From a virus, in IMG/VR virus record IMGVR_UViG_3300009481_001841, positions 1-21,695 of that record: DNA of 21,695 nucleotides; one strand, written 5' to 3'. A program made the translations under genes and the position numbers. A model generated the notes under the pieces. That model saw only the letters and a list, made by a program, of their open reading frames with translations. It had not been told where the DNA came from and made no database searches. Shown piece by piece: positions 2 to 21,695 of the stretch (positions within the stretch are counted from its first letter, which is position 1; the number at the start of each line of letters is the position of its first letter).

Positions 2-1072
2 GATGTTGGCGAATCGCTGTTTCGCTCGAACAGGGAGACCTACCTGAATCACAACATGGTTATGTCAACCATGCTGGAGATGGTAGCCCGAAGCAAGCGA
101 CAGGGACTGAAGGTCAAGTCAAGAGACGGTACGAAGACACTCGATGATGACCCATACTTGGAAGGTTCGGAGATTGCCCTTGCACAGGGCGAGGATGTCG
201 AACCACTGGGACTTATGGAGGTAGCACGGGAGACTGGTGCATTCATGGGGCTGGTTGCAGGAGAGCTACAGCGTGGTTCACTCCCACACTCAGTCTATGG
301 TGATGTGCAGTTCCAGCTATCAGGGTTTGCAATCAACACACTCAGACAGGGTGTTGAAACTATTCTTGGTAAGTACCTTCGCTCGATGGAGAAGGCATAC
401 CAGATGATATTTAATATTATCTCTGACCAGTACTTATCGGATTCATTTCAGGCAATTGAAGTATCGGGCATGGACAGAAACAGGAACTACTTTTCTGAGG
501 AAATCACTCCTGAGAAACTAAAGGGTACAGGTATTCCAGAGGTCAATGTGGTTGCACGACTGCCACAGGACGACATGGCGAAGTACTCGATGGCACAGAT
601 TGCACGAGAGGGTGCAACACCACTGCTCTCCGACAGGGCTATCAGGGACAGAATCCTTGCCCTGCAGGATGCAGACCAGATGGACTACGCTATCAAGGAA
701 CAGATGGCCGAAAGGATGCTGCCAGAGGCAGCACTCTGGTCACTGATTCAGGCTGCACAGGAACAGGGACGAGAGGACCTTGTGCAGTTCTACACAGGCG
801 AGCTTATCCGTATACTCATGGAAAAGAACCCTGCGATGCAGCAACAACCACCTATGGGACCCGGTGGTCCTATGGGTCCACCTCCCGGACCTATGGGTCC
901 TCCCCCTATGGGTCCACCTCCTCCCGGTGGTATGGGTGGTCCTCCGGGACTATCTCCGCAAGTCATGCCTGAAGCAATGATGGGCGTACCTCCTCCTGCT
1001 CCGACTCCACCTATGGGGCCACTCGTACCACCCGGCACACCACGACCCGGTGCACAGCAAGGACCGTTATAG
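2..1072 (+). CDS. Portal protein, C-terminal part (5' end cut by window)
   Basis: The frame is open from base 2, and the first ATG at 56 is internal, so this is the last 356 residues of a longer protein. A portal forms the twelve-subunit ring at one capsid vertex through which DNA is packaged and ejected. Support is the segment 'FQLSGFAINTLRQG' followed by a long helical stretch, which is the style of podovirus and siphovirus portal stem/wing regions, and the position upstream of scaffold and capsid genes. From about base 836 the protein becomes a low-complexity tail made of Met-Gly-Pro and Pro-Gly units, continuing nearly to the TAG stop. The next gene starts 4 bases after the stop. Portal identity rests on motif style and gene order; no family search was possible. 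Alternative: another head-tail connector protein. Confidence 0.72.
   Translation, partial: DVGESLFRSNRETYLNHNMVMSTMLEMVARSKRQGLKVKSRDGTKTLDDDPYLEGSEIALAQGEDVEPLGLMEVARETGAFMGLVAGELQRGSLPHSVYGDVQFQLSGFAINTLRQGVETILGKYLRSMEKAYQMIFNIISDQYLSDSFQAIEVSGMDRNRNYFSEEITPEKLKGTGIPEVNVVARLPQDDMAKYSMAQIAREGATPLLSDRAIRDRILALQDADQMDYAIKEQMAERMLPEAALWSLIQAAQEQGREDLVQFYTGELIRILMEKNPAMQQQPPMGPGGPMGPPPGPMGPPPMGPPPPGGMGGPPGLSPQVMPEAMMGVPPPAPTPPMGPLVPPGTPRPGAQQGPL
856..1040 (+). repeat. Met-Gly-Pro / Pro-rich coding repeat in the portal C-terminus
   Basis: Irregular in-frame repeats built on CCTATGGG encode 'PMGPGG', 'PMGPPPGPMGPPPMGPP' and similar units, followed by further Pro/Gly/Ala-rich sequence. The stretch is not a perfect tandem array. 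The protein product would be an extended, flexible tail. It is unclear whether this tail points into the capsid or towards the tail adaptor. Confidence 0.85.
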
Positions 1073-1075
1073 GCT

Positions 1076-4060
1076 ATGGCAAACGAAGCTGAGAATCTCG
1101 TTAACAGTGGGTTGATAGCTCAACTTGCCTATGGTGTGCCACCTGCTGCCGTATCACAGATACTGGAAAGCGGTGGCTCTATTGATGATGCCATGCGTAG
1201 GCTGGAACAGTACGAGGATGAGGCTGAGGAATCAGGGTTTGAGTTGGATTTTGACATTGATGACCTCTATGACCAGTTTGAAACAATTAGCCAGATAAAT
1301 AACACTGCTCCATTTCCTGTTCGTGATGAGGCGGAGGTAGCAGCGATAGTTGATGAAAACCCAGAGCTTCTGGATATGGCAGAACTGGTAGCAGCTACGA
1401 TAGAGAATCCTGATGACCTTGATGAGTTTGAGATGCTTGTCGGTGATATTGATGCTGCAATGAGTAATCTTTCTGATGATGTTGTTGATGAAATACTGGG
1501 AGCAATGGATTCCAAGGATTCCTTTGTTGGCCTTGAAAAAGTTATCACTGATATTGAAACAAGTATTGAGCAAATGGGTTCAATGGGAGAATCACTTAAC
1601 AACTGGGTTGCAGAGGTCGATACTATCTTAAAGCCTTCGATAGTTTTAGAAGCATCAGGATATGAAACACCTGAAACGACAGACCCTGTTAGTACAGGCA
1701 CTGCACCATTAGGTGGATGGGAAGACCCTGAAGATTATGTTCGGTCTCCTTGGATAGACCCCGGTGGAGATATAGGAGTGACAGGAGATAATCAGGAAAT
1801 TTGGGATTCAATGAATCCTGCCCAGCAAAAAGAAATCCTTGAGGTTGGATGGGAAAACTACGACTGGGATAATTTCCGGGAAAACAGAAAAATAGATTTT
1901 GCTGATGCCGATAAGGTTGAACTTCCGCCAACAGCTGAAGAAATGGAAAAGATGCGTAGTGTATACCGACCAGATTGGTATCACGAATTAAATGATATCG
2001 AAAAAGGAAAGTTTGAACAGTATATGTTTGTTGAGTCAGGACTTGAATTTGACGAACATACCGACTGGTATGGAATGATAAACAGAGGAACTTCTCCTGA
2101 CTTAGACCTTTCTCTTACCATGAGCAATTTACACCAGCAATGGAAAAAAGGTGGAAAACTTGATGTAAATGCTGCGATAGCAGCAGCAGAAGAAACCGCT
2201 ACAGGATTTCCCGGCTTCCCTTATGACCCAACAATGGTAGCAGGTACAGGTGGTTCAGGTTATAAGAATGAGTATGACGATGACGGAAAGATTATTTACA
2301 ATCCAAACGTACATGGAAGTGTCACGGATAGTGAAGGTAATAAGCAACCTATACCAGTCACGGGTAATTTCTTTTGGGATTCAGGTAGCGAGTTTAACTT
2401 TGAAACCGGACCAGCCGGACAGGCTGGTTACAACCGAGTAGAAATCCTAGATGCATTGAAACCGTACCTTGCACCAAACTTTGGATACGTTGATTGGTTT
2501 CAATATTTTTCTGAAGCCTATACTGGAAACAGTCAAGGTGAAGGCGGTTATCTCCAGAGTGCATCAGCCTTCGATACAGGCACACGTTCCCCTTGGATGA
2601 AGGGAGCGATTCCAGACGCGATGGGAGAATCATATGGAGAATGGCTTGGCTATGATATTCAGGAAAAGCTATTAGCAATAGAAAATATGCTTGGAGCAGA
2701 GGTTGCAAGTAAAGAAGCAGCAAACTTATTTGCTACTTTGTTTACGGGGATACATGGAACTAATGAACAGGGAAACCATCTATTAGAGCAACTTGATGGA
2801 GTGTCAACTGCATCACAGTTATTCAGAGTTGCTTCAGGTGCACTTCAAGGAAGGATAATAAATCCTAACTGGGACCCAACAGCGGGTGCTCCTCAAGCCC
2901 AATGGTATCAAAGGGGTGACATAGGCAAAGGAAAATCTTGGCTAAATGACATAGCAACTGCAATGCCTGATATTGCTCGATACTTCGGTGCAGAAAAAGG
3001 CGAACCCAAAGATACTGACCCAAGAGGTGCTTATGGAAATCGAGTGCAAAGCTGGACTTGGGACGAAGCGAAATTCCCTTCATTTGAAACACTTTCCCGT
3101 GGATATGACCTTAAATACGGAGGGGCTATTGACCCCAAGTCTGCTTTTGGTCAGGCTTACCTTGCTGATATCCTTGGTCAGCAAAAAAATGAACGAGATA
3201 AGTTTGATAAGGCATTTGGCAATACAAACCCAATGCTGATGGGTTACAGCGATATGCAAGATGCTCTCTTTGAAGATGCTTCTATCGCACGATTCCTTAA
3301 TGATGAAGGCTATCAGGAACAAACTGAACGATATCAGGGTATGCAAGCAGACCACTTATGGCCAGCTGAGGATAGTGCTAAGTGGCCTCAACCAGAAAAA
3401 CTTTATAACCTATCTGGTTGGGAGCAGGATACTGGTTACTACGAACGATATATAAATAACCGTAATGAAGAGGCTGAAAAACTTTATGATAATGCCTTTG
3501 AGCTTGCTGACTTCCTCGCTGATACTGCATGGATGGCAAGAGGTGAAGACTTTGCCAGAGATATAAGTGAAAAGGGTGTAGAACTTACTGAAGGTGCAAT
3601 GGCTTCTCAGGTTTATGAAACTTTTAATTTAAACCCTGATTCACTTGAGGACAGAAGAAAATATGCACAGCTTCAGGTATTTAACCCACTTGTTTATGCA
3701 GCAGGAAGTGACAATTATACTTCTGCTGAAGCAATGATAAAACAGATGGCACTATCTTCGACCTTACCTGTCGGTGCTAATCCATATCAAAGACAATTGC
3801 ATCGTTCAATGATTGACCAAAGGTATGATGAATGGGTAAATTCTAATAACAATCCAAATAGTTTCTTGAAATATTGGTTAGAAAGTGGCAGGATTGTTAG
3901 TACAAGAAGTTCATATTACGAACCAGAAACTGAAGAGGAAAAGACAGACCCTAAGTACTACTGGAATAAATATATACAGGATGAGTTTGGAGATGGACCA
4001 GACCCGATAAAAAGATATAGGTCAGCACCTTCAACAGTAACACCTACACCACCAATTTAA
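1076..4060 (+). CDS. Large acidic putative internal virion protein (994 aa)
   Basis: I do not recognise a full-length family. Residues about 1-185 are strongly acidic and helical, rich in Asp and Glu, and include 'GGSIDDAMRRLEQYEDEAEE'. The rest is a mixed, Trp/Tyr-rich sequence with many soluble-looking segments and no clear signal peptide or membrane span. The C-terminus ends in a Thr/Pro-rich tail. The gene begins 4 bases after the portal stop and is followed by two small genes and the giant 2511-residue gene. Size and place fit a virion-internal or ejected protein, or a portal-associated structural protein. I looked for a lytic transglycosylase signature: 'FVESGLEF' near residue 320 looks superficially similar but lacks the following Ala/Ser-Gly-Gln motifs. 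Function is therefore unknown; virion location is an inference from context. Confidence 0.6.
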   Translation: MANEAENLVNSGLIAQLAYGVPPAAVSQILESGGSIDDAMRRLEQYEDEAEESGFELDFDIDDLYDQFETISQINNTAPFPVRDEAEVAAIVDENPELLDMAELVAATIENPDDLDEFEMLVGDIDAAMSNLSDDVVDEILGAMDSKDSFVGLEKVITDIETSIEQMGSMGESLNNWVAEVDTILKPSIVLEASGYETPETTDPVSTGTAPLGGWEDPEDYVRSPWIDPGGDIGVTGDNQEIWDSMNPAQQKEILEVGWENYDWDNFRENRKIDFADADKVELPPTAEEMEKMRSVYRPDWYHELNDIEKGKFEQYMFVESGLEFDEHTDWYGMINRGTSPDLDLSLTMSNLHQQWKKGGKLDVNAAIAAAEETATGFPGFPYDPTMVAGTGGSGYKNEYDDDGKIIYNPNVHGSVTDSEGNKQPIPVTGNFFWDSGSEFNFETGPAGQAGYNRVEILDALKPYLAPNFGYVDWFQYFSEAYTGNSQGEGGYLQSASAFDTGTRSPWMKGAIPDAMGESYGEWLGYDIQEKLLAIENMLGAEVASKEAANLFATLFTGIHGTNEQGNHLLEQLDGVSTASQLFRVASGALQGRIINPNWDPTAGAPQAQWYQRGDIGKGKSWLNDIATAMPDIARYFGAEKGEPKDTDPRGAYGNRVQSWTWDEAKFPSFETLSRGYDLKYGGAIDPKSAFGQAYLADILGQQKNERDKFDKAFGNTNPMLMGYSDMQDALFEDASIARFLNDEGYQEQTERYQGMQADHLWPAEDSAKWPQPEKLYNLSGWEQDTGYYERYINNRNEEAEKLYDNAFELADFLADTAWMARGEDFARDISEKGVELTEGAMASQVYETFNLNPDSLEDRRKYAQLQVFNPLVYAAGSDNYTSAEAMIKQMALSSTLPVGANPYQRQLHRSMIDQRYDEWVNSNNNPNSFLKYWLESGRIVSTRSSYYEPETEEEKTDPKYYWNKYIQDEFGDGPDPIKRYRSAPSTVTPTPPI

Positions 4061-4084
4061 TGAAGTGTGATAAGGAGAAATATT

Positions 4085-4750
4085 ATGGTTAGTTTTTACG
4101 AAAGTCCATTTGATTACTCAAAATCGTTGAATCCATATGGTACGTTTACTGCACAACAAGCAGCAGATATTCCTGCAGCATCTGATGTAGATTACATGCT
4201 TTCTCCGCTTGACCAGTATCGGCGTGCTCAGGCTGCAAGAATGGGTACGGGGCCTTATCTTGAACAAAGCCCTTGGGCACGAGCAGCAATGGACCGAAGA
4301 TTTGAACCACTCTACGGTTTATATCAGGCTGCAGAACCATCAGGACAATATGCAGCATTTACTGATTTCCTGAGAGACCGACCTAATATAACAGCAGGAA
4401 ATATTACAGCAGCTGCACAGAATGTTGGTCAGTTAACATCAGCACAAAACCCGATACAGTACTCACTCTACTATGGTGGCGAAGGAATATCACCACAGCA
4501 AGCACTTGATAGGCAGCAACGACTAGCGAGAACGCAGATGCTTGCATCAATGGGTTCATCGACAGGCGATGGCCAAACGAATCGTGCTATGTTTAATAGG
4601 ACATTGCAAGCTGCTGCACGGGGAGCAGTTAACCAGATGTACCAGAACTACCTAGCAGGTGGAGAGGGTGATAACTTTGCAACGCAGGGCCCAACTGGAT
4701 TTATGAACTACTACCTCTCACAACGTGGCCTCAGTCCACAGAACGATTAA
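4085..4750 (+). CDS. Hypothetical virion-module protein (221 aa)
   Basis: The ATG at 4085 is preferred because AGGAG at 4073-4077 lies 7 bases upstream. The in-frame GTG at 4067 would add six residues but has no such site. The product is rich in Gln, Tyr, Ala and Gly, with no signal peptide or membrane span. It carries 'SPWARAAMDRRFEPLYGLYQ' (about 62-81) followed by 'AFTDFL' (91-96), a pattern loosely shared with the next protein. A second aromatic patch, 'GFMNYYLSQRGL', lies near the C-terminus. Sitting between two large putative internal virion proteins, it may be a small internal/ejection protein or an assembly partner. No family recognised. Confidence 0.65.
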   Translation: MVSFYESPFDYSKSLNPYGTFTAQQAADIPAASDVDYMLSPLDQYRRAQAARMGTGPYLEQSPWARAAMDRRFEPLYGLYQAAEPSGQYAAFTDFLRDRPNITAGNITAAAQNVGQLTSAQNPIQYSLYYGGEGISPQQALDRQQRLARTQMLASMGSSTGDGQTNRAMFNRTLQAAARGAVNQMYQNYLAGGEGDNFATQGPTGFMNYYLSQRGLSPQND

Positions 4751-4760
4751 AAGGTGAAAC

Positions 4761-5114
4761 ATGGCTAACGGTGACAATCCATTTGCTGACTATCTAGATG
4801 GCGGTTCATCATGGGGTTCACTTCTGCTTGAACAGCTACCACAAGCTGCCTATTTTTCTTCTCCTACTGGGCAGTCTTTTGGTGCAGGAAGCCCTAGGCA
4901 GCAACGATACTTTCAACAGAACTATCAAGATACATTTAATCAGTACATGGGTTCATTGGGCCAGCAGCTGCGAGAAGGCCAAAGTCCTAATCTGTCCTTC
5001 CAGCAGTTCTTGGAACAAGACCCGTGGACATCGAGATACTCACAGTTACCGCAGGCAGCTAGAGGCGTAAATACTGGTATGTATAATCCACGTACACGAC
5101 ATTTGTATTACTAG
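4761..5114 (+). CDS. Hypothetical Gln/Tyr-rich small protein (117 aa)
   Basis: The ATG at 4761 follows AAAAGGTG about 4-8 bases upstream, 10 bases after the preceding stop. The product is rich in Gln, Tyr, Ser and Gly. It has 'RQQRYFQQNYQDTFNQYMG' (about 46-64) and 'SFQQFLEQDPW' (79-89), which loosely match the 'RRFEPLYGLYQ...AFTDFL...SPW' elements of the preceding protein. There are no Cys residues, no membrane span and no signal peptide. The shadow reading frame at 4798-5070 is rejected because this frame has the ribosome site and joins the flanking genes tightly. Likely a small virion component; function unknown. Confidence 0.6.
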   Translation: MANGDNPFADYLDGGSSWGSLLLEQLPQAAYFSSPTGQSFGAGSPRQQRYFQQNYQDTFNQYMGSLGQQLREGQSPNLSFQQFLEQDPWTSRYSQLPQAARGVNTGMYNPRTRHLYY

Positions 5115-5125
5115 ACAGGTAACAT

Positions 5126-8100
5126 ATGACACTTGAAGAAATGCTTCGACAAATACGGGACAAGGGAAGGAAGCCTACCTATGCTCCTGAACCCGGTCCT
5201 CGTGGCGGAATGCTTTCAGAAAAAGCTAGGATAGGACCGTCTTTCATATTCGCTTCTCCAGAATCCGTACAGCCAAATGACCCACAATTTAGACCATTGG
5301 TAGCTTCACCTGTAGATGATTACTATTTTGATATCTACGGCAAAGGGCCAATGGGTGATGTTGATAGACCAGCAGATTTAAGGGCATTACAAGAGCAGGC
5401 TATGCAAAATAATGACCTTGCTCGATACTGGGAACTTGAACAAGCAAGGCAAATGCGTGAGTTTGAAATGAGAAAGGCTCCGCCAACAGAAATCTTTGCT
5501 GAAGATGAATCACAACGGTTAACGTCTTACCCTTATACAGCAACTGAAGTTTTACCTCTTGCTCAAAGAGGTGCAGCAGAGGTAACTGAAGAATTTGTTC
5601 CTATGTTGGCATTAGGTGCTGGTTTGACAAGAGAACAACCAGAAGCGGCTGCGTGGAATTTAATACAATCACTAAGACAAGATGATAAAGCTAAAAAATA
5701 TACAGAAGAAAGATTAGAAACTTTACGGAAACTCCCAACTATTCAACCAAAGTACAATGAGCTTGGAGAAAAAGCAGGAGAGGCATGGGCTGAGGAATGG
5801 GATAAATATCAAAAGTTAAAAGCAGCAGGAAGAACTGAAGAAGCTGTTGCGGTAAGAAATGCAGCCTTTGGAAAATTTAAAGAAGAGTATCCTGAAGTTC
5901 CAGATTTTTATTGGACTGCAGGAGAGATAGCACTTGAAACTGGAGTTTTTCTTGGTTCAAATTTAACAAAAACTGCGATGACGCAATTAGCACTTAGATT
6001 GCCACGGATGGTTGGTGGTGCTGACAAAGTAATTCGTCCATTCATTAGAGCGTTCGGAGAAACTGTAGGTATTCCAGATACTTTAGAAAATGCTTTTACC
6101 AGAGGCATTATAAAATCACTTATTGGAACAACTCGTTATGGTAGAGATGTCTATAGACTTTTAAGCAGAGGAGAAGGAAGAGCCTTCGACCCTGAGCAAC
6201 ACGAAATGCTTCGGGCAAGAAGGGCAGAGTTTAAAGGAATAACCGACCCTCGGCATGCTAGAGAACAAGAATTAACTCGTTTGGGAAAGTCTGAATGGGA
6301 AGGTCAGGATTTAAGAATACAAGGTAGTGTGACTGACACTGGTGTCCCTCGGTATCCTAAAGGACAAGGTGACCCAACAATAAAAAGAGAGCCTCCCATT
6401 ACGCCACCAGAGCAGAAGTCTTTGTATGATGAGTATGCTGAATTTAGAGCTAACACACCACCACCACCTTTGAGTACTCTTGAAGGAGAATATCCAGACA
6501 CCAGAATACTAGCTCAACAGCAGCAAGCATTGGCTGAAGATGCACGACTTGCTGAAGAGGCAAGATTTGCTGAAGAAGCACGACGCGTTGAAGAAGCACT
6601 ATATGACTATAGAGTTCGAGGTAAATCACCAGAACAATTAAGGCTTCAAGAAATTGGTGAGGAACAAAAGATTAGTAAAGAATATGATGATTTTACTAAG
6701 TCTCGTGAAGAAGCAATACCTGCAATGGAAGATAGGGTTGATGCAATTCTAGATGCACTAGATGATACTGATGAAGAAATAATTCAAGCACTATCAAGGG
6801 CAACAGGACGTGAACTTAGAGACCCTGCATATGAAGCAGGGCAATCAGTAGTAGAAGTTAATGTTGAAGCACTTCAGAGGAAGTATCCCGGTTGGTATCA
6901 GGAGTTAACTGATAGAGAGAGACGAGCTAGTAAGACCTATCCTGCAAAGGGAAAGCCGGGGACATTCGATAAATCTTCTTTTCTTATCGTAGGTCCAAGT
7001 AAAACCCCACGATTTAGAGGAAAGGACTTTACTACTGACCCTGCATCATCTTTTGGAACCACTATAGGCAAAAGCGAAAAACTAGGAATGGACCCTGATA
7101 TGCGTGAAGGTGGTCGTCTTTCACCTACTGATGAGCCTTATGGCCCATTGGAATATCGTGAAGAAGGAGGGTCACAGCTTTTACCCGGAACAGAGCCATC
7201 CAAGTTAGTAGCAATTATTACTGAAGATAATAAATTGAGGATGTATTACTCAGCTGATGAAATTAATCTAGGCATGAGAGTACAAGCTCAACCATTAGGT
7301 CCAAGACCTGAAGGCCAACTTTCGGGTGACCTCAGACCTTTAGATGAATTAGGGTATGGAAGGCAACAGGAAGTAGAAGTACCACAAGAGTTAATTGATT
7401 TAATTAGAAAACGCGAAGCATTAAATAGCGAGTTTCAAATTCTAAACTCAGATTTAGAGGAATTAAATGAGTTTTTGTCTGAAGCATTATTCCGTCCAAC
7501 TAGAGGGCAAAAAGGATTAGCACCAACTCCTCAAGAAATTGAACAACTTGATTTCTTAGAGAGGGAAGTTACTAATCTTAAAAGACAAAAACAAAGGCAG
7601 GAACTACTTCTCAAAAGACCACGTACCCCATCAGAATTTTTAAGATTTATTATTGCAGTACGTCATGGTAGAGAAACTGCTCTAGCAAATCCTGAAATGA
7701 TGGCTAGGAGTACTTCTTTTGGTGGTGAAGTTCCTACCCCGTGGACACGAGAGAAAATCGGGCAGGATGTTACAGACCTCTATGGTCCTCCATCACAAGC
7801 CAATGTAGGTACTTATGTAGAACTTAATTTGTGGTCGAAGACTCGAAGAAATACAACTGATGTTCCGGTAAAAGTTCCTTCAGAAGTACTTGATGCTTTT
7901 GAAGAATATCGTATGTTTGAACGGTATATGGTGGAGGAGACAGGAAGACCCGCTTGGAATGATATCCAAGAAGAGTGGTACTACTCTGGTCCCTCTATGA
8001 GTCCAAATCAGTACATGGCTTATACGATGGGTCGTGGAGAAAACCCTTGGTTAATAAGACCAAATGACGAGACAAAAACAATATACCTGCAAAGCAAACG

Positions 8101-11100
8101 ACGTGGTTCAGTAACTGAGGTAACTGACCCGGAGACAGAAGAGACATGGTTTTATAATAAAGCTGAAGATGAAAGATTTCAGGAATACTTTGACTCTGAA
8201 AAAAAGTTTAAATTTAACAGATTACAAAGAATTGAGAATGACTTATTTAAGGCTGAAGAAAGAGTACGTCAATATCAAAGACAAGTTGATAGGTCTGTTC
8301 GTCAAAGAATAACTCCTGAAAGAGTACCTCCTGAACCAGATTTATATGATGAGCCTATCGGACCAATCCCAGCACAATACGATGAGCCTATTGGGCCAAT
8401 CCCGACACAGTACGATGAACCTATTGGTCCTGTGCAAGCACAGTATGATGAACCTGTTGGACCACCAGTCTTTTCATATGAGGGTGGACCACCTGTTGGA
8501 CCACCCACTGCGTATGGAGCAGGACTACCTGAATATGGTCCTAAGCCTCCTGAAGGGTTTTCCCAAAGAAGAAGAGATGATATCCACGATAAAATAACAG
8601 GTGGACTCTGGGCTACTGCTGATAAGGCAGGAAAAGTTTTTGATAGTGCTATGAGAGGTATCGCCCGTGGAGCAGAGCAAGCAGTAACTCAGGCAACAGG
8701 TAAACGTAGGAAGCCAAGTTTCGTAGCTAGCTACGAGAAGATAAAGAACAATGTATTCCGTTTGGAAGGTGGAGCAAAGAAATCACTTGCTGATAGAGAG
8801 ATAGGCATTCGTAATATAGCTCAGAGAGGCTATCGAAATGTTGATAATACTGCTGATATAAAAAAACAGTTCAGGGATTTAGAAAACCAGCTGGCTACTA
8901 AAGCGAATTATAAAGGCAAAGCAAGAGCAACGTGGCGTATTTTACTGCAACAGTTAAGTAGACGTGCTCCTGATATAGATTTTAACGATATGGAAGAGTA
9001 TTCGTATTTGCAAGCAGCAAAAGACGCAATAACAAGAGAAGGTGATGGAAACGTAAAAATTAATATAGCAAGACAAGGCGAAGAAAATAAAATTATTACT
9101 ACAAGGGAAGAAGTAAATGCTGCTATCACTGAATTTACGGAAAAATTTGATACTAATTTAAGAAAAAATGTGGTAGATGGAGTAACAGGAGCAGAAACAG
9201 AAGTATATGTAAATCCAAGAATGCAACTTGATGAAGCACATACAGTAATGAAAGAGCATATAGCAAGTATACGAGAGAATATGGTCTTTACTGGAAGATT
9301 ATCGCGTGGGATTGCAAATGATATGAGTGCTAATTCACCAAGTTTAAATCCACTTTATCAGATTGATGAACAGTCTCAACTTTATGACCCTTTTGTTCAA
9401 ACACAACCATCTCTTGTTGCACCAAAAAGAACAAAATATTACCCGACTCTAAAACGATTGCCATCAAGATTTGATGGTATGAATGACTATCAAAAACTAA
9501 TAGGAATTTCCTCTATAAGAGATACGAATAACAGACTCTTTCTATCTATTATTGATGCTGCACAACTAGACGTTGGTCCTATGGGGATTGCTCGTAGTGT
9601 AAAAAAACTTACTCAAGAAGAAGTTAGTTCATTTACACTAGCTGATTATGAGGAGGCAATAAGAGAAGGTTTAGATATATATGACTATGATGAGATGGGT
9701 CGTTTTCAAAAGATGCGAGAGGGTGAGACTGAATCTGATTTCCTCGTCAGAATCACATCGCGACCTCCTAAGCGACCTACTGAAACCATGACATTCTTTA
9801 GGGACGGAGTAGAGGAAACATGGCAAGTACCGAAGGAGTTAGTTGAGTTGTGGGGTGCAGCTAATCAATTTGGATTTGATGATAAAGCAATGATAGGAGT
9901 TGTAGGTGTTACTAATCTATTTAGGGTATCTGCTACACAGGTAAATCCCACATTTATTAATCGGGCCTTTGCTGCTGATATATGGAACTATATGTCGCAT
10001 GAAGAAAAGACTCCGCTTCATGCTGCTGTTCGTATGGGACATCTAGGTGCTAGCCGTATCGCTTATGAACTTGGTGCAGAGAACACTGTTTATGAAAGAG
10101 TAAGAGATGTTTTTGAGTTACGTGGTGGTTCACAGGAAAAAACAAGAGGTATTGAAACTGCTGGAATAATGGCTGGTAAAACTAGGGCTGCTGAAGCTGG
10201 CAAACCAGTTTCCTTAGACGACAGTGATGCATTAAGGAGATACTTTAGTACTAGTTCGCTAAGAGAAACCGCTGAAGAACAGGGCTATACTGTAGTTACG
10301 AATGAAAAAGATGCTATGGCAATGGTTGGTAAGAGCTTAGGTATAACTTTACGAGCTCCGGTTACAGCTATTAAAGGAGGTTTGGATGCTTTGCAGTGGA
10401 TGGCACGAAAAAATGAGTCAGCAGCAAGGTTATTAACTGCCTATAAAGTTCTTGATAGCGAGGAAGGAGGAACTATTCGTGGTGGATTTGCTATAAAGAC
10501 ACCCTCTTGGGCTAGCAAGTCTTCTATGGAATTAGCTAGAAGTCAAGCAGGTCAGGAAGCAGCAGCCCGTGCTGTTGATATTACTCTTAACTTTGACCGT
10601 GGTGGTACTGCTATTAAGCAAATGAATACGTATATTCCTTTTCTCAATAGCACATTTGAAGGGGCAAAGCATCCTTGGAGGCGTTTGTTTTACGGTCCAA
10701 CAAGAGGAACTACGGCAATGAACCTTGGTTATTTAATGGCAGCAGATACTGCCATTACTGCACACAATATGTCCTACCCTGAATATATGGACATTGATAC
10801 AAAAACTCGATGGGGTTCAATATTCTGGATAACAGGTTATAAAACAGATAGTCAGGGTAATTACATAGAAGATGCAAATGGTAAACGTCAGATTGATGTA
10901 GCTGTATATCTTCCTCGGTTATGGAACTGGGGTGGATTACTTGCAATTAGAACTATCATGCATGAAATGATTTATCAAAATGACCCTTCACAAGAAACAA
11001 ATGCAGAGTTAGTAGACAAACTTACAGGTGATTTACCAACATGGTTAAGACGTACCCAGTACGGAATAAATACTCTTCGTAATGTTACTGAAGACCCGTT

Positions 11101-12661
11101 TGGAATTGCTAAAGAGACTCTAGCAGAAGGGCTTCCAGAATTTGGCAGGCAGCAAGCTCCAATACAGATACGTGGTGAAACTCCGACTGATACAGCTTTA
11201 AATATCTTTACGCAACCGGGATTACGTGCTGCATTATCATGGGTCTTTAATAGGAACTATTACTTTGGTTCTGATGTTGTACCGGAGGGCATGCGAGACA
11301 TGCCCAAAGAAGAACAATACCTTCCCGGCACTCCACGTCCTTATGTGGAAGCTGGTGCATTAACTGGTCAGTCTCCTTTACAAATACAGCAGCTAGTGAA
11401 TGATTTGTTTGGTGGTGGGGCAAAAGCACCAGTTGATATTTTTGATAAGGTGATTGATTTAATTTCTCCAGCATATACGGAAGAAAACCTTAAAGACTTT
11501 ACTGATTGGGCTACTGCTAATAGGAGAGAGCGGGCTGAGTTGGAAACAGATAGAACAGATGAATGGGTAAATCTTATGCGACGCATGGCACGGGACCCAG
11601 ACTTGGAGCAATTTGATGTTGCTCGCCTTGCTGAACAAGCAGAGGAAGACCCTCGTGTTGGTTCTCTTGGTGATTTATTCCGTGCACCATTACGTCCATT
11701 TACTGATGTCTTTACGCCAGAACAAAGAGCGAGAGCAGGCTTTGCCAAAGGAGTAGAGGAAGTAGAAAAACAAACTCCATTTTCTTTCGAGGATAGTAAC
11801 GCTGTGTCTGGCATTATGAGAGAATGGGATAACAATATGCGTACCCGCAAAATCGAGCTACAGAATCAATTAAATAGAAACGATATTACTTGGGAAACAT
11901 GGCAGCAGCAAGCTCTTGCGGATATAAGTCTACTTAGAAGAGAAGAATTAAAAAGGCTTGAAGACCTAGGTAAATATCCTAATGCTGTTCAGTTTGCTGA
12001 GATTGACGAACAAGCTATTGCTGACAAAAGTAAATATTTTAGTCTCTTAGCTGCTGAGGGAATATTACCTGATACAAGAGAACGTGGTGAAATTATCTAT
12101 CGTTCTATAAATGATATTGCAACAGATATAGAGCTTCTAGGTGCTAACCAACTTATTGAGAATCCTCATTACGGTAAACGTTTAAAAGAAATACAACAAA
12201 AAGTTGCTGCTCTTTCACCAGAGGACAGGAATCTCTATAGGCAATATGAAAATTCTCAATTTGCTACGAGTGCTGAAAAAGAAAGAAAAAACGATTTAAA
12301 TGCTATTAGTGATAGTGGTTACTGGCAAGCTGGAGTAGAAGAATTTAAAACAACTATGTCTGTTAAGTACAGTGCAAGAAAGACATTAATTGAAAAATGG
12401 TTAGATTCAAGTAAAGCGAAACAAGATTCGCTTGAGAAGCTTGAAGGAACTGATGAGGAACAAGCATTTTATACAATGCTTTCACGGGCTTATTTAAGGT
12501 CATCATCTCGAAGAAGAGCAAGAAGAGTTATCCTTAAAGATAACCCTGAGATAGAAGAACTTCTTATAAAGCATGGGTATCGAGAACAATCTATACCTGA
12601 TGCAGATATAGACGAAGTATCAGGATATCGTAGAATGTTAGTAGGTTCATTAACAAGATGA
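5126..12661 (+). CDS. Giant LPD38-like internal virion / polyvalent protein (2511 aa)
   Basis: This single uninterrupted frame covers over a third of the window. Residues about 262-340 hold an amphipathic, fairly hydrophobic stretch ('ETGVFLGSNLTKTAMTQLAL'). Residues about 469-491 are an Ala-Glu-Arg helix with repeating 'AEEAR'. Residues about 1074-1115 carry four 11-residue repeats of type 'YDEPIGPIPAQ' that look like a flexible hinge. The next half is helical. Near 1598 'FRVSATQVNPTF' is followed by an aromatic segment, and at 1818-1846 'DITLNFDRGG' and 'YIPFLNSTFEG' match the core pattern of the LPD38 domain (large polyvalent protein-associated domain 38: 'NFnrkG', then 'F-F-N-s-QG'). The C-terminal 500 residues are charged helices, with a basic patch 'SSSRRRARRV' near 2465. 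LPD38 proteins occur in phage virions and in polyvalent proteins injected with DNA. I infer a DNA-associated ejected protein. No nuclease, RNA polymerase or peptidoglycan hydrolase motif was found. Confidence 0.72.
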   Translation: MTLEEMLRQIRDKGRKPTYAPEPGPRGGMLSEKARIGPSFIFASPESVQPNDPQFRPLVASPVDDYYFDIYGKGPMGDVDRPADLRALQEQAMQNNDLARYWELEQARQMREFEMRKAPPTEIFAEDESQRLTSYPYTATEVLPLAQRGAAEVTEEFVPMLALGAGLTREQPEAAAWNLIQSLRQDDKAKKYTEERLETLRKLPTIQPKYNELGEKAGEAWAEEWDKYQKLKAAGRTEEAVAVRNAAFGKFKEEYPEVPDFYWTAGEIALETGVFLGSNLTKTAMTQLALRLPRMVGGADKVIRPFIRAFGETVGIPDTLENAFTRGIIKSLIGTTRYGRDVYRLLSRGEGRAFDPEQHEMLRARRAEFKGITDPRHAREQELTRLGKSEWEGQDLRIQGSVTDTGVPRYPKGQGDPTIKREPPITPPEQKSLYDEYAEFRANTPPPPLSTLEGEYPDTRILAQQQQALAEDARLAEEARFAEEARRVEEALYDYRVRGKSPEQLRLQEIGEEQKISKEYDDFTKSREEAIPAMEDRVDAILDALDDTDEEIIQALSRATGRELRDPAYEAGQSVVEVNVEALQRKYPGWYQELTDRERRASKTYPAKGKPGTFDKSSFLIVGPSKTPRFRGKDFTTDPASSFGTTIGKSEKLGMDPDMREGGRLSPTDEPYGPLEYREEGGSQLLPGTEPSKLVAIITEDNKLRMYYSADEINLGMRVQAQPLGPRPEGQLSGDLRPLDELGYGRQQEVEVPQELIDLIRKREALNSEFQILNSDLEELNEFLSEALFRPTRGQKGLAPTPQEIEQLDFLEREVTNLKRQKQRQELLLKRPRTPSEFLRFIIAVRHGRETALANPEMMARSTSFGGEVPTPWTREKIGQDVTDLYGPPSQANVGTYVELNLWSKTRRNTTDVPVKVPSEVLDAFEEYRMFERYMVEETGRPAWNDIQEEWYYSGPSMSPNQYMAYTMGRGENPWLIRPNDETKTIYLQSKRRGSVTEVTDPETEETWFYNKAEDERFQEYFDSEKKFKFNRLQRIENDLFKAEERVRQYQRQVDRSVRQRITPERVPPEPDLYDEPIGPIPAQYDEPIGPIPTQYDEPIGPVQAQYDEPVGPPVFSYEGGPPVGPPTAYGAGLPEYGPKPPEGFSQRRRDDIHDKITGGLWATADKAGKVFDSAMRGIARGAEQAVTQATGKRRKPSFVASYEKIKNNVFRLEGGAKKSLADREIGIRNIAQRGYRNVDNTADIKKQFRDLENQLATKANYKGKARATWRILLQQLSRRAPDIDFNDMEEYSYLQAAKDAITREGDGNVKINIARQGEENKIITTREEVNAAITEFTEKFDTNLRKNVVDGVTGAETEVYVNPRMQLDEAHTVMKEHIASIRENMVFTGRLSRGIANDMSANSPSLNPLYQIDEQSQLYDPFVQTQPSLVAPKRTKYYPTLKRLPSRFDGMNDYQKLIGISSIRDTNNRLFLSIIDAAQLDVGPMGIARSVKKLTQEEVSSFTLADYEEAIREGLDIYDYDEMGRFQKMREGETESDFLVRITSRPPKRPTETMTFFRDGVEETWQVPKELVELWGAANQFGFDDKAMIGVVGVTNLFRVSATQVNPTFINRAFAADIWNYMSHEEKTPLHAAVRMGHLGASRIAYELGAENTVYERVRDVFELRGGSQEKTRGIETAGIMAGKTRAAEAGKPVSLDDSDALRRYFSTSSLRETAEEQGYTVVTNEKDAMAMVGKSLGITLRAPVTAIKGGLDALQWMARKNESAARLLTAYKVLDSEEGGTIRGGFAIKTPSWASKSSMELARSQAGQEAAARAVDITLNFDRGGTAIKQMNTYIPFLNSTFEGAKHPWRRLFYGPTRGTTAMNLGYLMAADTAITAHNMSYPEYMDIDTKTRWGSIFWITGYKTDSQGNYIEDANGKRQIDVAVYLPRLWNWGGLLAIRTIMHEMIYQNDPSQETNAELVDKLTGDLPTWLRRTQYGINTLRNVTEDPFGIAKETLAEGLPEFGRQQAPIQIRGETPTDTALNIFTQPGLRAALSWVFNRNYYFGSDVVPEGMRDMPKEEQYLPGTPRPYVEAGALTGQSPLQIQQLVNDLFGGGAKAPVDIFDKVIDLISPAYTEENLKDFTDWATANRRERAELETDRTDEWVNLMRRMARDPDLEQFDVARLAEQAEEDPRVGSLGDLFRAPLRPFTDVFTPEQRARAGFAKGVEEVEKQTPFSFEDSNAVSGIMREWDNNMRTRKIELQNQLNRNDITWETWQQQALADISLLRREELKRLEDLGKYPNAVQFAEIDEQAIADKSKYFSLLAAEGILPDTRERGEIIYRSINDIATDIELLGANQLIENPHYGKRLKEIQQKVAALSPEDRNLYRQYENSQFATSAEKERKNDLNAISDSGYWQAGVEEFKTTMSVKYSARKTLIEKWLDSSKAKQDSLEKLEGTDEEQAFYTMLSRAYLRSSSRRRARRVILKDNPEIEELLIKHGYREQSIPDADIDEVSGYRRMLVGSLTR
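8345..8470 (+). repeat. 33-bp in-frame tandem repeat, about 3.8 copies
   Basis: Copies begin at 8345, 8378, 8411 and 8444 and encode 'YDEPIGPIPAQ', 'YDEPIGPIPTQ', 'YDEPIGPVQAQ' and a partial 'YDEPVGPPV'. Many base differences between copies are at third codon positions, so the peptide is being kept while the DNA drifts. The repeat divides the helical N-terminal portion of the giant protein from the LPD38-containing portion, and is best read as an extended linker. Confidence 0.9.
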
Positions 12662-12680: not shown

Positions 12681-13463
12681 ATGGTAATGCAAGAAGAAAA
12701 TCAAATACAGGAATCACAGCAATTAGGGTTTACTGATATAACCCCTGTTGAGGCTGAAGCTCCAACGGAAGAGCCAGCTGAAACAACAGAGCAGCCTGCT
12801 GAGGAAACTCCGGTACAGCCAGAGGTAACCACTGCGGTAACAGAGCAGCCTGTACAGGAGCAACCACTACCTGAAAGTCCTCCTGAAAAAACACAGGAGC
12901 AGATACAGCAGGAGTTGCAACGGCAACGTGAGATAGATGAACTGAGTCAACGCAGGTCACAGGAAGTAGAGGCTCAACGTAAGCAGCAGCTTGCCCAGAA
13001 AGCACAACAGAATGAACGACAATTGCTTGATGAAGGAATGCTTCCTGAACAGGCAAGAAAACAAACAAGGCAGATGGTGCAGTATGAAAACCGTCTATAC
13101 GAACAGGATAAACAAGCGGTAGAATTGCTTCAATTTGCTGAAGGACGTAATATTGCTGCACTTCAGATAGGAATGAGGCATGGACTTATACCGAAGGAAG
13201 TGGTAGATGATATAAACGTGTTGTTACGTTCTCAAAGTCCAGACAATATGGAGTTTGAGGCGAAGCGAATGTCTGAGTTACGTCAGACAAGGGCGGAAAT
13301 AAGTCGGTTGAAACAAGGACAGGTGAAGCCACAGACGTTTGACAACAGTCAGGGTTCGGCAGAAGCTGTTAACAATGAAGACAGACTTATTGAAGCATAT
13401 CTTAACGGTGACCGTTCAGAGGCTGCGGTGCAGGCAGCAAGACGGCTTACATTGGGTAGCTAA
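12681..13463 (+). CDS. Capsid scaffolding-like protein (260 aa)
   Basis: Scaffolding proteins fill the procapsid and guide coat protein assembly, then leave or are degraded. Residues about 20-70 are disordered and rich in Glu, Pro, Thr and Gln ('TEQPAEETPVQPE'). Residues about 70-135 form a long charged helix full of Gln, Arg and Glu, suited to a coiled coil. The C-terminal third has a further helical segment and ends 'EAAVQAARRLTLGS', where scaffolds often bind coat. The gene sits directly upstream of the capsid gene, the usual place for a scaffold. AGGA at 12671-12674 is 6 bases before the ATG at 12681; a second in-frame ATG at 12687 is possible. There is no sequence motif that proves the role; composition and position carry the call. 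Confidence 0.75.
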   Translation: MVMQEENQIQESQQLGFTDITPVEAEAPTEEPAETTEQPAEETPVQPEVTTAVTEQPVQEQPLPESPPEKTQEQIQQELQRQREIDELSQRRSQEVEAQRKQQLAQKAQQNERQLLDEGMLPEQARKQTRQMVQYENRLYEQDKQAVELLQFAEGRNIAALQIGMRHGLIPKEVVDDINVLLRSQSPDNMEFEAKRMSELRQTRAEISRLKQGQVKPQTFDNSQGSAEAVNNEDRLIEAYLNGDRSEAAVQAARRLTLGS

Positions 13464-13474
13464 AGGAGGCTCCT

Positions 13475-14338
13475 ATGGCACAGACAGCCACGACTGGTAA
13501 TTTAGAGAATGCACAGAAGATTATTATAGCAACGTCTCGTTACACCGAGGAACACAATGCTCCTGCGATGAACTTGATTGAGCAATTCAACCTTCCAAGC
13601 GGAGCAAAAACAATGACTGTTCCAAAGGTTGGACAAATGTCAATGAGTGACCTTGTTGATGGGGTTGACATCACTGACGAAGAAGACATCGGAATGACCA
13701 CGGTAGACCTCACTGCATCCGAGGTTGGAGCCAAGATTGTTATTACCGACAAACTTTCCCGACAGAGTGCTGAGAACGTATTCAGCATTATCGGACGACA
13801 GCTTGGTGACGGCATGGCCCGAAAGAAAGATGTTGATGTAACTTCACTTTACTCTGGCTTTAGCACAGATTTAGGTGCGTCAGGCAGAACTATGAAAATT
13901 GCAAACGTTGCTGCCGTTATCGCATATGCCAAAGGTAATAAATTTGGTTCTCAGGTGTACATCAACCACCACCCATTTACCGTGTTTGACTTAGCCAGCA
14001 CCGCAGCAGTAAGCAATGCAGCAACGTACCCTGTACCTGCTGGATGGACTGCTGATTTGCTAGGCAATTTTTTCAGTGGTCTTCGTCCTCTTAACGGAGT
14101 TCCAATCTTTGAAGACGGGAACATAGACCGAAGCACTGCTGCAGCAACTGTTGGTGTTATTGCTGACAGGACTGCTTTAGGTGTACTAAAAAGCGTAGAC
14201 ACTCGAACAGAGCGACAACGTGACGCTTCCATGCGTGCAACAGAAGTGGTTATCACTGCTGACTACGGTGTATTTGAACTTGATGACAGTAAAGGTGCAG
14301 CCCTTACACTAGACGCAACAGCACCTGCTACTGACTAG
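13475..14338 (+). CDS. Major capsid protein, HK97-fold type (287 aa)
   Basis: This protein would form the icosahedral shell. Its length suits a small HK97-fold coat protein. It has an N-terminal helix region, a central 'VDLTASEVGAKIVITDKLSR' strand-turn-helix, a 'KKDVDVTSLYSGF' segment, a 'VYINHHPFTVFDLAS' core helix/strand and a late 'RDASMRATEVVITADYGVFE' stretch. That order (E-loop-like part, P-domain helix, then A-domain strands) is typical of coat proteins from environmental podoviruses. The ribosome site AAAGGAGG just 5 bases from ATG is the strongest in the window, as expected for the most abundant virion protein. It follows the scaffold gene by 11 bases. Identity is inferred from pattern and context rather than from a search. 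Confidence 0.85.
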   Translation: MAQTATTGNLENAQKIIIATSRYTEEHNAPAMNLIEQFNLPSGAKTMTVPKVGQMSMSDLVDGVDITDEEDIGMTTVDLTASEVGAKIVITDKLSRQSAENVFSIIGRQLGDGMARKKDVDVTSLYSGFSTDLGASGRTMKIANVAAVIAYAKGNKFGSQVYINHHPFTVFDLASTAAVSNAATYPVPAGWTADLLGNFFSGLRPLNGVPIFEDGNIDRSTAAATVGVIADRTALGVLKSVDTRTERQRDASMRATEVVITADYGVFELDDSKGAALTLDATAPATD

Positions 14339-14347
14339 GAGAGTTAA

Positions 14348-14686
14348 ATGGCTATAGGAACTAAGGAGCGTACTGAAATGAGAGACAAGTTAGTATCTCA
14401 AGGGTACGACTGGAAATATATAGATGAATGGCAACCCAAGGTAACCCTGTACAGGCATTGCCCGGTATATTCTCCATCAGGAGCGGAGGCTAGTCCGAGA
14501 GGAGCAGCTATCCATAATCTACCGGGTAATCCTGACTACGTTCATAAGAAAACTAGGATTGGGTTATTCAAATGGCCTCCAAGTGATACGTGTGCGTGTC
14601 AATGGTGCGTTGAAGAAAGAAGTAAATCATCTACTAAAACTAAACCAGAAGTGGTTATTGAAGAGGTAGATGGGATACCTAGCTAG
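14348..14686 (+). CDS. Small Cys-containing hypothetical protein (112 aa)
   Basis: Not recognised. The start at 14348 follows AGGAGAG, 9 bases after the capsid stop. The N-terminal 35 residues are charged and helical. Cys38 in 'YRHCPVYSP', then Cys82, Cys84 and Cys87 in 'TCACQWC', with His37, His56 and His66 nearby, could form a metal-binding knuckle. The C-terminal 20 residues are charged and probably disordered. Because it lies between the capsid and decoration genes it may be a minor head protein or an assembly helper, but nothing in the sequence fixes the role. Confidence 0.6.
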   Translation: MAIGTKERTEMRDKLVSQGYDWKYIDEWQPKVTLYRHCPVYSPSGAEASPRGAAIHNLPGNPDYVHKKTRIGLFKWPPSDTCACQWCVEERSKSSTKTKPEVVIEEVDGIPS

Positions 14687-20364: not shown

Positions 20365-21695
20365 CCATTAACTTTAGAGGCTATGTTTTTGATGATTCAG
20401 GAGCAGCAGTCAGTGGAGCCAGTGTAAAACTCCTTGATACAGGAACAACAACACAGGAGGGCTCTACTGCTACGACTGACTCTGATGGTCTATGGTATTT
20501 CAATACTGTTTCGGAAGCTGATGGTCCATTTGATGTAGAGATAACGAAGGGTTCATCAGTCAGGCGTATCAGGTGGGATGACCAGATACACCTGAAAGAA
20601 ATAGATGTACAGAACAACACAGGCAACACTACTCCTGCTGCTACCTTTACTAATTATACTAACAATGCTGATAACGATATTGCTCACTTCAGAAGCCTTC
20701 GAGGTACTGGGGCAGACAATGATGAAATGTATATTCGTTACTACATGGATGACGCATCATCAAACAGCACTGAAGTAGCACGGATGACCGTGAAACTTAT
20801 CAGTGCTAATGCTACGTCTGAAGACAGCGAGATTCGCTGGGGGGTAGCTGTAGGAGGAAGCATTGTCGATGTATTCACCATCAGTAATACGGATGGTGGC
20901 GTATCTACATTTGCGATTGATGCGGCAGGAGATATAACCCTCGATGCAGATGGCGGAGATGTTTTCTTTAAAGATGGTGGTACTACGTTTGGTTCTGCCA
21001 CTAATAACTCAGGTGAGTTAATTATTAAGTCAGGAACTACCACAGCTTTGACATTCTCAGGAGCAAACGTAGCGGTAGCAGGTGACCTTACTATTACAGG
21101 TGATGACCTTGTAATGGGAACGAACACTGATGGGTATGTTCTTATAGCAGATGGTACGAACTACAACCCTGTTGCAGTCAGTGGTGACATAGCGATAACC
21201 AATGCAGGTGTCACCTCTATTGCTTCAGGAGTAATCGTCAATGCTGACGTTAATTCCAGTGCTGCAATAGCACAATCGAAACTAAGCCTGACTGACGCAT
21301 CTACTTCTGCTAAAGGTATTGCTCAGTTTAGCTCTGATAACTTCGCAGCTTCTTCAGGAACTATAACCATCAAGGACGGTGGTGTTGTTACTGCTGAACT
21401 TGCTGATGACGCTGTTACTTCAGCCAAGATAGCAGACGATGCCATCACCAGTGCGTTAATTGCAGATGATGCTGTAGTCACAGCAGCTATAGCAGATGAT
21501 GCTATCACTAGTGCATTAATAGCTGACGATGCAGTCGTAACAGCAGCCATAGCAGATACTGCTGTTACCTTTGCTAACATACAAAACGTAGCAGCCAACA
21601 GTATCTTGGGAAGAAACGCTAACAGTTCAGGCGTATTGTCAGAGGTAGCACTTGCTACAACGCAGATACTCATAGGTGATGGTACAGGGTTTACC
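20361..21695 (+). CDS. Tail fibre protein, N-terminal part (3' end cut by window)
   Basis: The ATG at 20361 has GGAGG about 6 bases upstream and the frame is open to the window end, giving 445 residues. Residues about 3-80 resemble a carboxypeptidase-regulatory/Ig-like beta domain ('FRGYVFDDSGAAVSGASVKL'), which could attach the fibre to the tail. Residues about 80-330 are Gly/Asp/Thr-rich shaft-like sequence. 'DASTSAKGIAQFSSD' is a phage fibre repeat-like element. From about 348 there are six 10-residue repeats of the type 'ADDAITSALI'. Then 'NSILGRNANSSG' begins another fibre module. Fibres of this kind trimerise and bind the host surface. The receptor-binding tip, which would lie at the C-terminus, is not in the window. 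Confidence 0.85.
   Translation, partial: MTINFRGYVFDDSGAAVSGASVKLLDTGTTTQEGSTATTDSDGLWYFNTVSEADGPFDVEITKGSSVRRIRWDDQIHLKEIDVQNNTGNTTPAATFTNYTNNADNDIAHFRSLRGTGADNDEMYIRYYMDDASSNSTEVARMTVKLISANATSEDSEIRWGVAVGGSIVDVFTISNTDGGVSTFAIDAAGDITLDADGGDVFFKDGGTTFGSATNNSGELIIKSGTTTALTFSGANVAVAGDLTITGDDLVMGTNTDGYVLIADGTNYNPVAVSGDIAITNAGVTSIASGVIVNADVNSSAAIAQSKLSLTDASTSAKGIAQFSSDNFAASSGTITIKDGGVVTAELADDAVTSAKIADDAITSALIADDAVVTAAIADDAITSALIADDAVVTAAIADTAVTFANIQNVAANSILGRNANSSGVLSEVALATTQILIGDGTGFT
21402..21581 (+). repeat. Six 30-bp in-frame repeats in tail fibre
   Basis: Copies start at 21402, 21432, 21462, 21492, 21522 and 21552, each coding ten residues. Copies 2 and 4 both encode 'ADDAITSALI', and copies 3 and 5 both encode 'ADDAVVTAAI', so there is a 60-base higher-order unit present twice. 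Copies 1 and 6 are related but less alike. The peptides suit a trimeric fibre shaft. Confidence 0.92.

Follow-up and report, generated by a model that had tools for sequence, protein, structure and literature searches.

A cysteine-free giant LPD38 protein with shared ends and a variable core, likely an ejection protein of a phage with a probable Chloroflexota host

Polyvalent proteins (Iyer et al. 2017) are giant phage proteins encoded among the late genes, in which LPD domains occur within a mix of two or more unlike domains. For one of these domains, LPD38, the only reports are from polyvalent proteins of the phage type, with none from integrative or conjugative elements (PMC5512222), which corrects an earlier sequence-only reading of the present locus that had named integrative elements as a further source. 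Stx phages likewise carry LPD38 relatives. In JC1, gp69 (4515 aa, LPD38 at residues 4195-4401) was found in purified virions by mass spectrometry, with 51 unique peptides (PMC9144972). Proteins proven to be ejected with no cysteine in their sequence have also been described; for the N4-type virion RNA polymerases (vRNAPs), the absence of cysteine has been published and proposed to ease passage through the tail and the envelope (PMC2784036, PMC3915230, PMC3715699).

The DNA analysed here, referred to as the window, is a fragment, entered as a virus record of 21.7 kb (21,695 nucleotides). Its genes follow the order portal C-terminus, three proteins of 994, 227 and 117 aa, a giant protein, a scaffold-like protein, the major capsid protein (MCP), then tail-type genes up to a fibre (Table 1). 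The sequence-only reading had placed the giant between portal and scaffold. This order holds, except that the giant does not directly follow the portal gene, as the 994-, 227- and 117-aa ORFs intervene. The portal assignment relies on a weak P22_portal match in Pfam and on the place of the gene right after the terminase in relatives. Indeed, the ORF is 66-76% identical to the one following the terminase large subunit in contigs L101, L099 and their relatives, and 42-43% identical to homologues from Chloroflexota metagenome-assembled genomes (MAGs). The scaffold label derives from position and conservation. The giant corresponds to a single open frame, as had been proposed. Contig L002, in which the genes follow the same order, has an ORF of 2490 aa that is 23-24% identical to the giant; the frame is therefore not an assembly artefact. 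Downstream of the capsid gene, a 112-aa protein (14348-14686) contains four cysteines (CACQWC), most of its neighbours having none; it is ~47-82% conserved in relatives and possibly binds metal. The fibre-like gene begins with a carboxypeptidase-regulatory-like domain and contains a 60-bp tandem repeat (21429-21565) encoding IADDAITSAL/IADDAVVTAA units.

Table 1 Features of the window. Positions are those of the whole 21,695-nucleotide stretch; residues are those of the giant unless stated otherwise.
Feature	Positions	Strand	Remarks
Portal protein, C-terminal part	56..1072	+	338 aa from first ATG; frame runs off window start
994-aa cysteine-free protein	1076..4060	+	34% identical to 857-aa ORF of L093 over residues 689-953
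227-aa cysteine-free protein	4067..4750	+	37% identical to L002
117-aa cysteine-free protein	4761..5114	+	37-70% identical among 17 loci matched
Giant LPD38 protein	5126..12661	+	2511 aa, no cysteine, ATG start, AGGT upstream
N-terminal end domain, residues ~260-343	5903..6154	+	HHalign to other-core giants, E 2e-5
Unmatched putative cargo region, residues ~350-1061	6173..8308	+	matches nothing in databases searched
Linker, 33-bp tandem repeat coding YDEPIGP-type units	8344..8464	+	
Extended LPD38 module, residues ~1423-2117	9392..11476	+	HHalign to known LPD38 giants
Motif DITLNFDRGG..YIPFLNSTFEG, residues 1818-1846	10577..10663	+	7-sequence alignment; aligns to BcepIL02 gp70
Pfam LPD38 match, residues 2020-2109	11183..11452	+	profile 72-172 of 189; invariant PxEEQY
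C-terminal end domain, residues ~2310-2487	12053..12586	+	HHalign to other-core giants, E 6e-8
Scaffolding protein, probable	12681..13463	+	placed ahead of MCP; matches in 80 loci
HK97-type major capsid protein	13475..14338	+	PHROG and Pfam capsid matches; 526 viral-contig relatives

Membership of the giant in the LPD38 group is supported by family and profile searches. Pfam returned PF18857 at 33.5 bits (E 5.7e-8), the curated cut-off being 27, and a six-frame search reached 38.3 bits. The sequence-only reading had recognised LPD38 by two motifs, DITLNFDRGG and YIPFLNSTFEG, which are confirmed at residues 1818 and 1836. However, the Pfam stretch begins ~170 residues downstream, so that the motif is not the Pfam core, but a conserved part of an extended LPD38 module. 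In an alignment of seven sequences, F1823, G1827, N1834 and N1841 are invariant, together with the PxEEQY block of LPD38. The giant gp70 of phage BcepIL02 (4667 aa) has the corresponding VTVDFDRKG..YLFLN at residue 4283, with LPD38 at ~4348-4553. When a profile built from the proteins of the window, L002 and L080 was compared by HHalign with six known LPD38 giants, they aligned over residues 1423-2117 with an E-value of 9e-17. This extended module is common to giants of BcepIL02 and of Vibrio, Ruegeria and Planktothrix phages. The window protein alone gave E 1e-4 at the motif; when the reference alignment was longer, it gave E 6e-9 over residues 1811-2097. Among 40 shuffled controls for the window protein alone, the best E-value was 0.011. 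The late-gene context of LPD38 is also found here, the gene lying between portal and MCP. By sequence, no solved structure matches the module. Its AlphaFold model (7 sequences) has a mean pLDDT of 38.8, making it unusable, and it was kept out of the fold search.

Compared with BcepIL02 gp70 and JC1 gp69, the giant likewise has LPD38 near the C-terminus, an FxRxG..FLN motif upstream, a length of thousands of residues and a position in a late virion block; like gp70, it contains no cysteine. In contrast, lytic transglycosylase-like, methylase/helicase-like and LPD3 regions occur in the two known proteins, and none of them is recognised in the giant. In addition, the giant gene of Bcep22-type phages follows the genes for tail fibre and head closure, whereas that of the window precedes the scaffold gene. 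With the polyvalent proteins, the giant shares the size, the LPD domain and the late-gene setting, and a protein in the same slot of a related phage bears an ART-PolyVal domain (see below). The mix of two or more unlike domains is not encountered, LPD38 being its only recognised domain. A lack of cysteine and a set of proteins including a very large member recall T7 gp15/gp16, P22 gp7/gp20/gp16 and N4 gp50-52, although no similarity to T7 gp15/16, N4 gp50/51 or P22 gp16/20 is detectable by BLAST or HHalign.

None of the 2511 residues of the giant is a cysteine. The other genes of the window have 9 cysteines in 3172 residues; at this rate, about 7 would be expected in the giant, and the chance of finding none is 8e-4. 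Cysteine is also absent from 13 distinct complete giants (23,496 residues) and from 44 partial ones, some of which are near-copies. The same is true of LPD38 giants from other phages, namely BcepIL02 (0/4667), Vibrio K248 (0/2502), Vibrio D274 (0/3162), Planktothrix (0/2803) and Ruegeria (0/3597, incomplete), as well as of L103 (0/1500) and L117 (0/1399); the exceptions are Bacteroides BF1-TP2, with three cysteines, and L118, with one. Among proteins of well-studied phages, T7 gp15/16, N4 gp50-52 and P22 gp7/20/16 have none and T7 gp14 has one, against 4, 7 and 8 in the portal, gp10 and tailspike of P22. Nonetheless, the portal fragment, scaffold and MCP of the window are equally free of cysteine, so this trait alone is not specific for ejection. 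We used it as a supporting trait of podovirus ejection proteins and not as a definition.

With the whole giant as query, nothing was found in phage records or viral contigs. Relatives were therefore reached through the capsid protein, which finds 526 viral contigs, of which the best 80 (78-86% identical) were retained. Wherever the region is complete in these 80, the scaffold gene is immediately preceded by a giant ORF (1340-2490 aa). LPD38 is present in three of the 50 records with this capsid, those of the window, L002 and L080; the giant of L080 is also found in a longer contig, L099. In most other giants of the slot, the core has no detectable similarity to LPD38, and full-length profiles of LPD38-type and other-core giants gave no convincing similarity. 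The other core does not match the LPD38 module and the ends alone match. The C-terminal ~175 residues align across core types with an HHalign E-value of 6e-8 (best of 30 shuffles 0.06, reversed 0.6). At the N-terminal side, residues 260-343 of the window protein align to other-core giants at E 2e-5, against 0.09 for the best of 30 shuffles and 0.055 for the reversed control. BLAST gives the same picture for the giant of L099: residues 1-281 (E 3e-11) and 1771-1865 (E 3e-7) match the other-core giant of L047, while the part in between has its matches in L002 and in the window protein. As to the genes upstream of the giant, the 117-aa protein is kept with both core types, and the 227-aa protein has a weak profile similarity (E 1e-4) to its counterpart in other-core phages. 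No similarity is detectable between the 994-aa protein and the ORF in the same slot of those phages.

In a tree of the capsid protein, LPD38 carriers do not form one clade. The window stands beside other-core L062, and L079/L080 are placed elsewhere. Well-supported branches force at least two core changes, with the LPD38 label on four rows only. This scattering suggests that the core has been exchanged, although a similar picture would result from recombination near the capsid gene. Fragments of same-slot giants in L004, L035, L036 and L050 match neither LPD38 nor the main other type in BLAST, and further core types may exist. The same-slot giant of L064 (2694-9149) has TPR repeats (residues 342-418) followed by an ADP-ribosyltransferase domain (458-537), the ART-PolyVal match reaching 32.5 bits, barely over the cut-off of 31.2. 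It is probably an injected modifier of host proteins.

The sequence-only reading had also suggested that up to 1500 N-terminal residues may hold undescribed functions, with no recognised enzyme domain outside LPD38. The latter is borne out by Pfam, NCBIfam and PHROGs, in which no enzyme family matches; in addition, the giant has no HExxH or Walker A motif of the sort expected of polyvalent peptidases or ATPases. The unmatched portion is shorter than was thought. For residues ~350-1061, searches of Pfam, NCBIfam, PHROGs, PDB, phage records and viral contigs gave no match, but residues ~260-345 form a shared end domain, and the LPD38 module extends from ~1423 onward. Weak PDB-search matches to ankyrin on one 30-residue stretch were judged to be due to chance. 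The C-terminal end domain is all-helical in its AlphaFold model (pLDDT 74.8, reaching 86-96 at residues ~2387-2486), for which a fold search returned no match at E below 0.1.

Capsid relatives in cellular genome contigs all belong to Chloroflexota or Dehalococcoidia MAGs (8/8, 48-55% identity), which makes a Chloroflexota host probable. From these relatives, the window phage would probably infect deep-ocean Dehalococcoidia, perhaps SAR202, a clade of this class that has been discussed as bearing S-layers (PMC5395668). Two of the capsid relatives come from long contigs (161 and 253 kb), in which relatives of terminase, capsid, portal and tail genes occur within ~20 kb, in a prophage-like arrangement. 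Prophage-like regions with these four kinds of relatives were observed in L107-L111 and L128-L132, from Dehalococcoidia/Chloroflexota MAG contigs, with portal and capsid genes ~18-20 kb apart. No comparable giant was seen near the prophage-like MAG regions. In the literature searched, we found no described phage of SAR202. Pelagiphages HTVC111P, 112P, 026P and 202P have a capsid protein ~30% identical to the MCP and annotated tail modules (with tape measure genes) that differ; by this comparison, the origin of the window phage appears mosaic.

Four other roles were weighed for the giant. It could be a virion structural protein only, part of an internal core or of the head vertex, which is retained in the capsid without delivering an activity. 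Such a role is unlikely. It would agree with the lack of a recognised enzyme domain and with adjoining capsid proteins that are just as cysteine-free, but a large, fast-changing, module-swapped sequence beside conserved capsid genes fits delivered proteins better, as does the ART/TPR cargo of the related giant of L064. An anti-restriction protein of the DarB kind, shielding the incoming DNA, is more doubtful still: although LPD38 is present in the DarB-like giants of Bcep22-type phages (PMC9144972), their SNF2 helicase, methylase-like and LPD3 regions are not found in the giant, nor is a Walker A motif.

Great length and absence of cysteine would also suit a tape measure protein of a long-tailed phage, and the pelagiphages with the ~30% identical capsid protein are annotated with tape measure genes. 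We nevertheless regard this as very improbable, given that those genes are separate and follow the capsid gene, whereas the giant precedes it and lies outside the tail block. Moreover, the giant has no tape-measure match, and neither a tail tube or tail chaperone gene after the capsid gene (by family searches) nor any other long-tail module is seen in the window, itself a fragment. Finally, size, lack of cysteine and presumed delivery with the DNA are common to the giant and the vRNAP gp50 of N4. That it is such an enzyme, diverged past recognition, can hardly be expected, as the polymerase domain is absent and neither BLAST nor HHalign (E at least 0.1) finds similarity to N4 gp50.

We favour the interpretation of the giant as an ejection (pilot) protein, probably of a short-tailed Chloroflexota phage, and consider it likely. 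An injected protein is the best reading in view of the presence of JC1 gp69 in virions, the restriction of LPD38 to phage-type polyvalent proteins and the ART and TPR domains of L064. The LPD38 score above cut-off, the homology to BcepIL02 gp70, the complete lack of cysteine and the location in the head-gene block support ejection; the lack of similarity to proven ejection proteins and of a catalytic domain weakens it. Delivery with the DNA, already suggested by the sequence-only reading, is thereby strengthened, if indirectly, by the absence of cysteine, the late-gene context and the virion mass spectrometry of JC1 gp69. The giant would be packed in the capsid near the portal along with the products of the three preceding genes (994, 227 and 117 aa), the first probably being a second large ejection protein and the 227-aa one a small ejection protein. 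It would then exit via the portal and the tail as a largely unfolded chain and refold within the host envelope or past it. Packaging and docking would probably be served by the end domains at the N- and C-terminus, and the LPD38 core would probably handle envelope or DNA passage, with residues ~350-1060 as individual cargo.

LPD38 giants were already known as a kind, as was the lack of cysteine in N4 vRNAPs. What is new here is the combination of conserved ends with an exchanged core, the strict absence of cysteine, the link to Chloroflexota and an unmatched putative cargo region of ~700 residues. More tentatively, the giant might act as a cassette in an abundant marine phage group, its ends fixed between portal and scaffold and its core and cargo exchanged; in that case, the ends could act as a transferable signal for packaging and ejection, and residues ~350-1060 as an effector, as yet undescribed, directed at Chloroflexota. 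Ejected phage proteins diverge fast and are thus seldom recognised. The locus offers a set of rules for finding them, namely a cysteine-free giant frame in the head block, with conserved ends and an exchanged middle. It also draws attention to a group of phages whose probable hosts are Dehalococcoidia, a class to which SAR202, abundant bacteria of the deep ocean, belong. Should packaging and ejection be directed by the end domains, these would define a natural protein-delivery cassette.
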